NCBI GenBank assembly: GCA_025353925.1
Contig: JANXNV010000031.1
Coordinates: 1 to 34,827, forward strand
Origin: Armatimonadota bacterium
GTDB taxonomy: Bacteria > Armatimonadota > Armatimonadia > Armatimonadales > Capsulimonadaceae
Reading direction: 5' to 3'
DNA: 34,827 nucleotides
Of this stretch, positions 19,655 to 34,178 are shown piece by piece. Position numbers and translations under genes: made by a program. Under the pieces are notes generated by a model, which saw only the letters and a program-made list of their open reading frames with translations, had not been told where the DNA came from and searched no databases. Within the stretch, counting starts at the first letter, position 1; every line of letters starts with the position of its first letter.

Positions 19655-19664
19655 GGAATGAAAG

Positions 19665-19832
19665 AACCTAACCCCGTCGCTCCGCGCCGACCCTTCCCTC
19701 AGAAGGAAGGGTGAAGACAGCAGCAAGAAATTGGCCCCAGCTTCTCGAAAAGAGGCTGGGGCCTTTATTCTCTCCCAACTCCTCACCCTTCCTTCTGAGG
19801 GAAGGGTCGGCGCGGAGCGACGGGGTTAGGTT
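19665..19832. repeat. 168-bp intergenic element with perfect 50-bp inverted repeats
   Basis: Left arm 19665-19714 is the exact reverse complement of 19783-19832; 68-bp spacer. Confidence 0.95.
19733..19767 (+). terminator. Terminator hairpin nested inside the 168-bp inverted-repeat element
   Basis: GGCCCCAGC...GCTGGGGCC followed by TTTATT. Confidence 0.75.
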
Positions 19833-19838
19833 CGGCTC

Positions 19839-29099: not shown

Positions 29100-29244
29100 T
29101 TGAGGGTTCCGGGTGGTAACATAAATGGGACGGCGGCATTGCCGGTGAGTTGGTGCAAGTAGCACCGCCAGTATAGCCGAAAAATGGCGAAAGTAAGCTA
29201 AGACGTGGAACTAAAGTTCTACGCTGTGTGGCGCAGACGCCTAG

Positions 29245-29262
29245 TTTCGACCTGCGTCGAAA
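29245..29262. promoter_or_regulatory. 18-bp palindrome upstream of the small antitoxin-like cassette
   Basis: TTTCGAC-CTGC-GTCGAAA. Confidence 0.4.
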
Positions 29263-29307
29263 AAGATACACAGACAGCAGAAGGTGGTCTTGTCTGGTTC
29301 AATTACG

Positions 29308-29794: not shown

Positions 29795-30448
29795 ATGATT
29801 ATAACAAACACATCTACCGTACCGAACTACGAAAAGCGTCTCGATGCCAATCACACCTGGGCACTCCGGGAGGGTGGAATGTTCTTTCAGAACGAGAGTG
29901 AGGTGCAGAAGTCGCTGCGCCGCATCACGGACCGCCTCCGAGACCTCGGCATCGACTATGCGGTGGTGGGCGGCATGGCACTCTTTCTGCATGGCTATCG
30001 GCGGTTCACGGAAGACGTAGACTTGCTGGTGACACCGGACGGGCTGGCAAAAGCACACGCGGCTCTGGAAGGGAGTGGGTATCGGCCTCCGTTTCCTAAC
30101 AGCAAGAATTTGCGGGATACGGAGAATGGGGTGAGAATAGAGTTCATAATCACCGGTGAGTATCCGGGCGATGGTAAGCCAAAGCCCGTCGCGTTCCCCG
30201 ATCCTGTACATGCCGGGGTAATGCATGAGGGTATCACGCTGCTGAATTTACCGGCACTCATCGAGCTGAAGTTAGCATCGGGCATGACGGGGGCGGGTCG
30301 CATCAAAGATTTGGGAGATGTCCAAGAATTGATCAAACTGCTGAAACTGCCGTCTGATTATGCCGCTGTGGTCTCGCCGTTTGTTCAGGAGAAATACAAG
30401 GAACTGTGGCAGTCCGCAGCGGGCATTTCTGAGCAGGAAGAACAGTAG
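29795..30448 (+). CDS. Nucleotidyltransferase-like protein (DUF6036/AbiEii-type fold)
   Basis: IDYAVVGGMALFLHGYRRFTEDVDLLVTPDGLAKAHAALE...LIELKLASGMTGAGRIKDLGDVQELI. Confidence 0.75.
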   Translation: MIITNTSTVPNYEKRLDANHTWALREGGMFFQNESEVQKSLRRITDRLRDLGIDYAVVGGMALFLHGYRRFTEDVDLLVTPDGLAKAHAALEGSGYRPPFPNSKNLRDTENGVRIEFIITGEYPGDGKPKPVAFPDPVHAGVMHEGITLLNLPALIELKLASGMTGAGRIKDLGDVQELIKLLKLPSDYAAVVSPFVQEKYKELWQSAAGISEQEEQ

Positions 30449-30458
30449 GGATAAACAC

Positions 30459-33053
30459 ATGGCACAGAGCGCGGTCGATACGGAGCTGGAAACGCTGATC
30501 CGGGCACGGTACCCGATCATTTATGTCGTCTCCTGGGAAGAGAAGCGGGTTGAGGAGGCCCTTGGGGCAATCGCGAAAGCCCGCGGCAAGAAGATGTACC
30601 AGTGGACTGTCACGCAGGGCATGGTGCTGAACCCGCTGAACCGGGATGAGGCCACCCGGGACCCGCTGGCCGCGCTGGACTTTATCATGGAGTCGCGCGA
30701 TCAGGCTGTGTTCGTGCTGAAAGACTTTCATCCATTTTTAAACGATACGGCCCTGGTGCGCCGTCTGCGGGATTTGACGGTGTCCCTGAAAACTTCTTAT
30801 AAAACCATCGTCCTGCTCTCGCCCCTGCTGAAGCTGCCGCCGGAGCTGGAAAAAGAGATCACCGTGGTGGATTATGCCCTGCCGTCGGAAGAGGATTTAG
30901 GGCTGCTGCTGGACAGCATTATCCAGAGCGTCAAGGCGAACCCCCAGGTGCAGACCGAGCTGACCACTGCCCAGCGGGAGCAGCTTCTGAAAGCCGCTCT
31001 GGGGCTGACGGCGACGGAGGCGGAGAACGTCTTCGCGAAGTCCCTGGTCGAGCGGCGCCGGTTCGATGTAGACGTCATTCTTTCGGAGAAAGAGCAGATC
31101 ATTCGCAAGTCCGCCATTCTGGAATACTACCGGACTTCGGAAGCCTTCGGGGATGTCGGCGGACTCAATCTGCTGAAGGACTGGATGGACAAACGCACCG
31201 TGGCGTTCACTGAAAAAGCCCGCGAATACGGCCTGCCGTCCCCGAAAGGGATCCTGATTTTAGGCGTGCAAGGGTGCGGTAAGTGCCATGCATTGGACAC
31301 CCCGATTTTGATGCACGACGGTTCGGTCAAGACAGTGCAAAATGTCGAGGTCGGTGACAGGCTGATGGGGCCGGACTCGCAGTCGCGTGCGGTACTGTCC
31401 ACGATGCAGGGACGAGGCGAAATGTACCGGGTCTCGCCGATGAAGGGGGACTCCTACACGGTCAACGCTGACCACATCCTGTCTCTGCGCGTGAGTGGCT
31501 ACACCCCCAAACACAAGAAATTCAAAGAGGCCGATACGAATGGCCTCATCAACATTCCCGTATGTGACTATTTAAAGCGCAGCCCCTGCTTCCATCAATC
31601 TGCGATGGGCTGGCGTACGGGCGTAGACTTCCCCGTGCAATCCGTTCCCTTAGATCCCTACTTCCTCGGCCTGTGGCTCGGAGACGAGGACTCCTGCCAT
31701 CCGAATATCACGACGATGGACCCGGAGATTGCAGCGTATCTGGAAGTTATTGCGGCGCGGTACGGGGTGCGTGTTCGCAGCAGCATCACGAAGGGCAGAG
31801 CGACGCATTACTGCCTATCAGCGGGTCAGCTCGGCAGTGCGCCAAATCCATTGACTTGCCTACTGCGGCAGCTCGATGTCGCCGGGAACAAACATATCCC
31901 GCATCTTTACAAAACAAATAGCCGGGAAATTCGTTTGCAGGTGCTGGCCGGGATCATCGACACGGATGGGCACCAGAACGGCAATACCTATGATCTTATC
32001 CAAAAGAATCAGAAATTGGCCCAGGATATTGTATTTCTGGCACGGTCGCTCGGTCTCGCCGCCTATCTTATGCCCTGCGAGAAGTCTTGTTCTTACCTGG
32101 GCCTGAAGCGCAGCGGACACCACTTCCGTGTGTCAATCTCAGGAGATACCGATCAAATTCCAGTTCGTGTCGCGCATAAAAAGTGCAGCCCTCGTCGTCA
32201 GCGCAAGAATGTTCTCAATGTTGGCATCACTGTGTCACCGGTCGGGGTGGACGACTATTACGGGTTCGAGGTCGAGGGCGACGGCCTTTTTCTACTCGGC
32301 GATTTCACAGTCACGCACAACTCGCTCTCGGCAAAAGCGATCGCGTCGCTCTGGAAACTGCCGCTTCTGCGGATGGATGTCGGCAAGATTTTTGGGGGCA
32401 TTGTCGGGCAGAGCGAAGAGAATATCCGAAAAGCCATTCGGGTGGCGGAAAGCACGGCCCCGAATATCGTCTGGATCGATGAGCTGGAGAAGGGCTTTTC
32501 GGGAACGCAGTCGTCAGGAATCAGCGACGGAGGCACGACGGCGCGGGTATTTGGAACGTTTCTCGCCTGGCTTCAGGACAAAACGGCTCCGTGCTTTGTC
32601 GTGGCGACCGCAAACGACGTTTCCGCGCTGCCGCCGGAGCTGCTGCGCAAGGGCCGCTTCGATGAGATTTTCTTTGTCGACCTCCCGGATGGACCGGAGC
32701 GGGAAGAGATCTTCACGATCCACTTGAAAAAGCGGAAGCGGGACCCGGCGAAGTTCGATCTACCCGCACTCGCGAAAGCGACACCGGGTTACTCGGGGGC
32801 GGAGATCGAGCAGGCCGTGATCTCGGCCATGTATGATGCATTCAATCTGGACCGGGACATCCAGACCGAAGATATTCTCACTGTCGCCAAGCAGTCCGTG
32901 CCGCTGTCATTGACCATGAAGGAAAAGATAGACATCCTGCGCTTCTGGGCCGAAACCCGCGCCCGCCCGGCTTCGTCCGCCCCGCCGGTCGAGACGCAGG
33001 AAGCGGGAATGCAGGAGCACGATGACCGGATCACGCCGGTGCTGATTGAATGA
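30459..33053 (+). CDS. Ycf46-like AAA ATPase interrupted by an in-frame intein
   Basis: N-extein [25 protein letters not shown]...[13 protein letters not shown]-extein [61 protein letters not shown]. Confidence 0.93.
31284..32321 (+). mobile_element. Intein (346 aa) with LAGLIDADG-type homing endonuclease motifs, inserted in Walker A between K and S
   Basis: Block [30 protein letters not shown]; block [21 protein letters not shown] and LAGIIDTDG; blocks [24 protein letters not shown] followed by S. Confidence 0.95.
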
Positions 33054-33085: not shown

Positions 33086-33237
33086 GATAGGAGCCACGGA
33101 TTGGAAATCCGAGGCTGGAAAGTGCCCACCGTCGAAGCGACGTTCATACTGCGACGCACGGCCCTTATCTACCACTCTTGCGTCCCCTGGACGCTGGGCT
33201 TTTTCCAGCCTCGGATTTCCAATCCGTGGCTCCTATC
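33086..33237. repeat. 152-bp intergenic element with 36-bp perfect inverted repeats
   Basis: GATAGGAGCCACGGATTGGAAATCCGAGGCTGGAAA (33086-33121) is the reverse complement of 33202-33237; imperfect pairing continues inward. Confidence 0.93.
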
Positions 33238-33275: not shown

Positions 33276-34178
33276 ATGACTACCTTCCCCAAATCTTTAG
33301 ACGCCTTCCTCTCCAATATGTCCGCAGAGCGCGGCCTGTCCCAAAACACGCTGACGGCTTATCAGTATGACCTGACGCAGTTCTTCGAATTTCTTTCCGC
33401 CCAGCAAGTCACGTCTGTCAGTGCGATCACACCGGGCCATGTCTACGACTTTCTGGCTCACTTGCGCCGGATCGGGCAGCGTCCGGCCAGTGTTTCCCGG
33501 AAGCTGATCTCAATCAAGATGTGGATGCAGTTTCTGTGCCGAGACGGACTGCGTAAAGATGACCCGACAAGCCGGCTGGACAAAATCAAGCCGCCGCCGC
33601 TGCGTCTGCCGCATACCCTTTCCTTGATTGAGATCGAACGACTGATTGTGGCTCCCACCACCGAGACCCCGACGGGACTGCGGGACCGGGCCATGCTGGA
33701 GATGATGTACGGCTGTGGCCTGCGGGTCTCGGAGCTGGTTACTTTGAAGTCAGGCGATGTGGACACACGCGCCGGTCTGGTCCGGCCTTTCGGGAAAGGC
33801 GGCAAGGAGCGTCAAGTGCCAATGGGCGACGGCATTCGCGACAGCCTCGCGGCCTATCTCAAATCCAGCCGTCCAAAGCTGCTGGAAAAGAAGCCGCCGA
33901 CGACCGCGCTCTTCGTGACGCACCGGGGCGGGCCGATGACTCGGCAGCATTTTCTGGTACTGGTCAAAACCTATGCGCGGCAGGCACAAATCGCCAAAAC
34001 CATCTCCCCTCATATCCTGCGGCATTCGTTCGCCACCCATCTGCTGTCCGGCGGAGCCGATCTGCGGGCGATCCAGGAGATGCTCGGCCATGTCAGCGTG
34101 CAGACCACCCAGCGGTACACGCGGGTGGATGTCGCCCGACTGCGCGAAGCCTACGACAAAGCACATCCGAGGGCCTGA
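33276..34178 (+). CDS. xerD: Site-specific tyrosine recombinase XerD
   Basis: LDAFLSNMSAERGLSQNTLTAYQYDL, MYGCGLRVSELVTL, SPHILRHSFATHLLSGGADLRAIQEMLGHVSVQTTQRYTRV. Confidence 0.94.
   Translation: MTTFPKSLDAFLSNMSAERGLSQNTLTAYQYDLTQFFEFLSAQQVTSVSAITPGHVYDFLAHLRRIGQRPASVSRKLISIKMWMQFLCRDGLRKDDPTSRLDKIKPPPLRLPHTLSLIEIERLIVAPTTETPTGLRDRAMLEMMYGCGLRVSELVTLKSGDVDTRAGLVRPFGKGGKERQVPMGDGIRDSLAAYLKSSRPKLLEKKPPTTALFVTHRGGPMTRQHFLVLVKTYARQAQIAKTISPHILRHSFATHLLSGGADLRAIQEMLGHVSVQTTQRYTRVDVARLREAYDKAHPRA

Follow-up and report, generated by a model that had tools for sequence, protein, structure and literature searches.

How does a bacterium obtain a working P-loop ATPase from a gene whose Walker A motif is interrupted, in frame, by 346 codons, and where did the interrupting sequence come from? 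This question is raised by a locus in a 34,827-nucleotide stretch of DNA (contig JANXNV010000031.1, assembly GCA_025353925.1; the whole stretch is called the window below) from an Armatimonadota bacterium of the family Capsulimonadaceae. Very probably, the interrupting sequence is a full-length class-1 intein of the PI-SceI/VMA1 type, inserted at the Lys|Ser junction of the motif (the bar marks the splice junction throughout), which is likely to be splicing-competent and which most likely derives from a pool of P-loop inteins that is mostly phage-borne.

The Host Gene and the Boundaries of the Insert

The gene occupies positions 30459..33053 of the forward strand, on which all features described here lie, and encodes an intein-containing precursor of 864 aa, or 518 aa once spliced. 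The longest open reading frame called mechanically begins at 30360 (897 aa), but homologues favor translation from 30459 (MAQ), which is probably the start in use. On its sequence, the host protein appears to be Ycf46-like (an AAA ATPase of the SpoVK/Ycf46/Vps4 group). The host flank matches Pfam AAA (2.3e-20) and AAA_lid_3, and homologues occur in 185 of the 292 Cyanobacteriota genomes that were sampled. An Rfam search gave zero matches.

The insert spans residues Cys276–Asn621 of the precursor; it starts with a cysteine, ends in His-Asn, and is followed by a serine. In its own numbering it runs from Cys1 to Asn346 (346 aa; 31284..32321). The N-extein (30459..31283; 275 aa), which is 98% identical to its intein-free counterpart in G001, a genome of the same genus, terminates in GVQGCGK, residues 1–7 of Walker A (31263..31283). 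The motif is continued by the serine at 32322..32324, which is at once the Walker A serine and the predicted +1 splicing nucleophile, and the C-extein (32322..33050; 243 aa) supplies the remaining AAA domain and the lid (AAA, 7.4e-21; AAA_lid_3, 2.3e-8). The original prediction had placed an intein within Walker A at exactly these coordinates, and removal of the insert does restore GVQGCGK|SLSAKA in a 518-aa product, with the junction at Lys275|Ser276 of the spliced protein.

An empty allele joins at the same point. In G001 the gene lacks the insert and the alignments of the two exteins meet exactly at K|S, with 504 of 518 extein residues identical (98 and 97% on the two sides of the junction). 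Five further members of the family were found, all of them intein-free. The spliced protein also aligns across K|S with an intein-free AAA ATPase from a Treponema plasmid (55% identity over 96%) and with CDC48 (6.5e-52). Failure of intein-less homologues to align through this junction, or a lack of Hint similarity in the insert, had been named in advance as grounds for abandoning the prediction; the homologues align through it, and the Hint similarity is given below. The architecture of insert and host is far above chance, and the intein is correctly delimited.

Fold and Splicing Residues of the Intein

Against Pfam, the insert matches Hom_end_hint (3.4e-16; 60.4 bits against a cut-off of 32.1) and Hom_end (7.3e-7; 29.7 bits against a cut-off of 21.1), as the original prediction proposed to check. 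A search of PDB sequences with the intein returns PI-SceI as the top match (E 5.8e-14), and PI-SceI is again the top PDB fold match when an AlphaFold2 model of the intein, built from an alignment of 82 relatives (pLDDT 96.4), is compared by Foldseek (E 2.6e-25; TM 0.80 on the query). The N-terminal splicing half, including Cys1, corresponds to the Hom_end_hint match (residues 1–71; 31284..31496), and the C-terminal half, which contains blocks F and G, covers the last 23 residues (32253..32321).

The splicing signatures claimed at both ends are present, and the class-1 set is complete: Cys1, His64, His345, Asn346, and Ser+1. Block B reads NADH (31464..31475), in which Asn replaces the usual Thr, as it does in 93 of 105 relatives. 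Since Cys1, the block-B His64, His345, and Asn346 are invariant across all 105 relatives and a serine occupies +1, class-1 splicing can be inferred. According to this scheme, the 864-aa translation product would be inactive, its P-loop being split; Cys1 would attack the peptide bond at Lys275, the N-extein would pass to Ser+1, Asn346 would cyclize with the assistance of His345, and the 518-aa ATPase would be released with its P-loop restored. By analogy with P. horikoshii RadA, whose unspliced P-loop precursor is reported to be inactive (cited in PMC6195587), the unspliced precursor may soundly be expected to be unable to bind ATP.

Kinship with Phage Inteins

The nearest kin of the intein outside its order are phage inteins on IMG/VR contigs, which are 47–51% identical over the full length. 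In total, 679 phage records match it; one such relative, gp34 of Salmonella phage vB_SenS-Ent1 (HE775250), is annotated as an intein-containing helicase. Relatives were gathered by intein sequence motifs rather than by their flanks, and 105 non-redundant members were kept. The insertion site is GK|[ST] in 78 of these and G|xGK[ST], three residues earlier, in 22, while 5 lie elsewhere or in degenerate P-loops. Thus 100 of the 105 interrupt Walker A in otherwise unrelated P-loop ATPases. Inteins are known to favor such proteins, as the original prediction states, and the P-loop Lys|Ser/Thr junction is an established, classic intein site (PMC5050341; PMC10643990). The hosts include SF2 helicases, DnaB, AAA, MoxR, Cdc6, VirD4-like proteins, and terminase. 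Among 81 C-exteins compared with Pfam, about half carry SF2 helicase domains (ResIII in 46, Helicase_C in 45), with single or few cases of AAA, Cdc6, DnaB, MoxR-type AAA_3, RecA, UvrD, type IV secretion (T4SS) coupling protein, and terminase GpA. As the Walker A sites are shared by non-homologous ATPases, the register of insertion has been kept while the host family changed.

In the intein tree, the window intein and a second Armatimonadota intein, from G010 (JAPLCP010000219.1, Armatimonadetes bacterium; another family of the same order), form a clade (100/85), which is sister to an intein in a DnaB-like protein from a phage contig (99/98). By this grouping and by its GK|S site, the window intein is a member of a phage-borne P-loop intein lineage. 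The direction of transfer is not fixed by a tree in which the collection is mostly phage sequences, support is low for many of the deeper branches, and the bootstrap is short of fully settled; we infer that the intein most likely entered the order from the phage-borne P-loop pool. The same intein lineage also occurs in Cdc6-like AAA proteins of Thaumarchaeota, at three loci.

The LAGLIDADG Nuclease and Probable Spread by Homing

Between the splicing halves lie two LAGLIDADG motifs. As originally noticed, the first (31662..31691; 10 residues) reads LGLWLGDED, in which Asp134, at the catalytic position, is kept and the consensus Gly135 is replaced by Glu; position 135 is Gly in 102 of the 105 relatives and Glu in 1 of 105, the present intein. 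The second motif (31944..31970), LAGIIDTDG, is intact, so both Asp134 and Asp228 are retained. The G010 intein has a normal LGDG in its first motif. Because of the Glu at 135, present nuclease activity of this copy is uncertain, and the nuclease may be decaying here. At an earlier time, the nuclease domain would have driven homing into empty alleles.

These features bear on the view that the intein is a purely selfish element, which splices constitutively, has no effect on its host, and spreads by homing. Its sporadic distribution, its kinship with phage inteins, and the retention of the nuclease Asp residues together with the fold around them are all consistent with such an element, and we regard this reading as rather likely, tempered by the Gly135Glu substitution, which may signal nuclease decay in this copy, and by a cysteine arrangement suggestive of regulation.

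A Native Cysteine at Extein Position -3

The host P-loop, GVQGCGK, places a cysteine (Cys273; 31275..31277) at extein position -3, and this residue is a candidate redox-trap partner of intein Cys1. The G010 allele, the other one with an intein in Walker A, also has Cys at exactly -3. Among the GK| members of the intein family, Cys at -3 is rare. Two inteins, that of MoaA in Pyrococcus abyssi and an engineered form of Ssp DnaE, are under the control of a disulfide between Cys-3 and Cys1 (PMC3922620; PMC10663303). In Synechocystis, oxidative and other stresses are reported to elicit a response of the ycf46 operon (PMC7496141). By analogy, the cysteine at -3 could slow splicing, and the intein might even act as a conditional switch, in which oxidation would lead to a Cys273-Cys1 disulfide, splicing would stop, and the ATPase would stay off until reduction allowed the P-loop to be restored. 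On the other hand, the cytoplasm is reducing as a rule, and Cys at -3 is shared by almost all of the Armatimonadota Ycf46-like loci read, whether or not they contain an intein, so that the cysteine is older than the intein and was not selected for it. The exact position in both alleles, the disulfide precedents, and the stress response of the cyanobacterial operon keep such a switch a tentative idea, which we consider rather unlikely.

Distribution of the Intein and the Case for Vertical Inheritance

In 291 Armatimonadota genomes searched, 212 of which have the Ycf46-like gene, this intein is found in this gene in 2, those of the window and G010. The two inteins share the site and are 58% identical, and the exteins are 69–74% identical. 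No other genome of the order that has the gene carries the intein, and no intein-bearing Ycf46 is present among the approximately 150 Cyanobacteriota matches listed (frames all ≤620 aa). The GC content of the intein is below that of its exteins in both the window genome and G010, and its GC3 differs from that of both hosts.

An old intein, inherited vertically and lost in most lineages of the order, would explain why the window and G010 inteins group together in the tree and why they have diverged just somewhat more than their exteins. It would also require numerous precise losses, as the intein is absent from the same-genus sister, from the five family members, and from the rest of the gene-bearing genomes of the order, and a GC3 unlike that of the hosts sits poorly with long residence; vertical inheritance is unlikely, and a later, phage-derived gain is preferred. 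That the intein is dead, leaving the precursor unspliced and the gene a pseudogene, is highly improbable: nothing beyond the lone nuclease substitution speaks for it, whereas the reading frame is open across 864 codons, every splicing residue is an invariant one, the exteins are 97% identical to the intact sister, and no second Ycf46-like copy, intein-free or not, was found in the genome, where the other matches are weak and to AAA proteins. As the sole Ycf46-like gene found, this copy presumably must splice to be useful.

Synonymous Re-coding of the Empty Site

The window exteins and the G001 gene differ at 175 of 1554 nt. Codons 274–278, at the insertion point, contain 8 differences in 15 nt, all synonymous, which is the highest value of any 15-nt interval in the gene (by permutation, p is 5e-5 for this site and 0.02 for any position in the gene). 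The serines at +1 and +3 are coded by TCG in the window and by AGT/AGC in G001, while TCN/AGY switches between the sister genomes affect 1 of 168 conserved serines in a background of 13 neighboring genes only. Since relatives in the family code these serines with TCN, the change is most simply placed on the intein-free G001 branch. Homing resistance, recombinational loss of an intein, or co-conversion in the lineage of the window are possible origins of the re-coding. The fuller conjunction, in which an intein of phage lineage would serve as a natural redox switch of a stress-type ATPase and the intein-free sister would have escaped homing through synonymous re-coding, is distinctly unlikely as a whole.

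Other Inteins and Neighboring Sequence

A second intein site exists in the same gene family. Ycf46-like genes in G011 and G221 carry different inteins at VAP|C, just before Walker B, of approximately 490 and 260 aa, respectively, as read from the translations; the short G221 intein seems to be without a nuclease. The window protein has Asn in the +1 place of this site and, by the usual rules, could not splice an intein there. The window genome has four intein-bearing genes altogether, the other three being DnaB, a PcrA/UvrD-type helicase, and GyrA, whose inteins are unrelated to the Ycf46 intein at the search sensitivity used; no further copies of the latter were found elsewhere in the genome. 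Armatimonadota inteins also occur in a RecD-like helicase (G007) and a terminase-like protein (G252).

Just 3' of the ycf46-like gene lies an inverted repeat (33086-33237; 57-nt arms, 89% complementary), which looks like a dispersed element of MITE or REP type, as the sister genome has related copies at dozens of positions. Two more short stretches, at about 29196-29268 and at 19664-19834, have several sister-genome matches each. Directly after the inverted repeat is a tyrosine recombinase of the phage integrase family (33276-34178), which adjoins the ycf46-like gene in G001 too and is thus probably a housekeeping gene of the XerC/D type. Assembly contamination was ruled out by the synteny of the contig with G001.

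Implications

The original prediction knew of no intein documented in Ycf46-like ATPases, and no report of one was found in the open full-text literature searched. As K|S/T is a classic intein site, the window intein is a known kind of element in a new host gene. The phage kinship, the native Cys-3, the second Ycf46 intein site, and the re-coded empty site go beyond the initial claim. The intein map gains the Ycf46-like ATPase as a host gene, with two distinct sites within one phylum. The Walker A intein is also a clear example of an intein in a cellular P-loop protein that, beyond its own order, is most closely related to phage inteins of non-homologous ATPases. Because of the native Cys-3, whether inteins serve as regulators can be tested directly with natural exteins, and natural homing resistance can likewise be tested with the re-coded empty site of a close relative.

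Comparison with Known Systems

PI-SceI, the yeast VMA1 intein, resembles the window intein in its Hint domain, two-motif LAGLIDADG architecture, Cys1, and terminal His-Asn. It is larger (454 against 346 aa), is about 20% identical, and resides in V-ATPase subunit A rather than in an AAA ATPase. The Pyrococcus abyssi MoaA intein likewise follows a native Cys at -3 with an intein Cys1 (PMC3922620); its host is unrelated, and in the window the trap is a prediction. The classic P-loop inteins (TerL1-a, MCM-a, archaeal VMA-b, and P-loop RadA) occupy the same kind of site, Walker A Lys|Ser/Thr (PMC5050341; PMC10643990; PMC5790916), in other host proteins. Phage helicase inteins, such as those of Salmonella phage vB_SenS-Ent1 gp34 and Vibrio phage 1.009.O, are 44–48% identical to the window intein over the full length and belong to a lineage that, like it, sits mostly in Walker A; their hosts are phage helicases, whereas the host in the window is the bacterium's own AAA ATPase.
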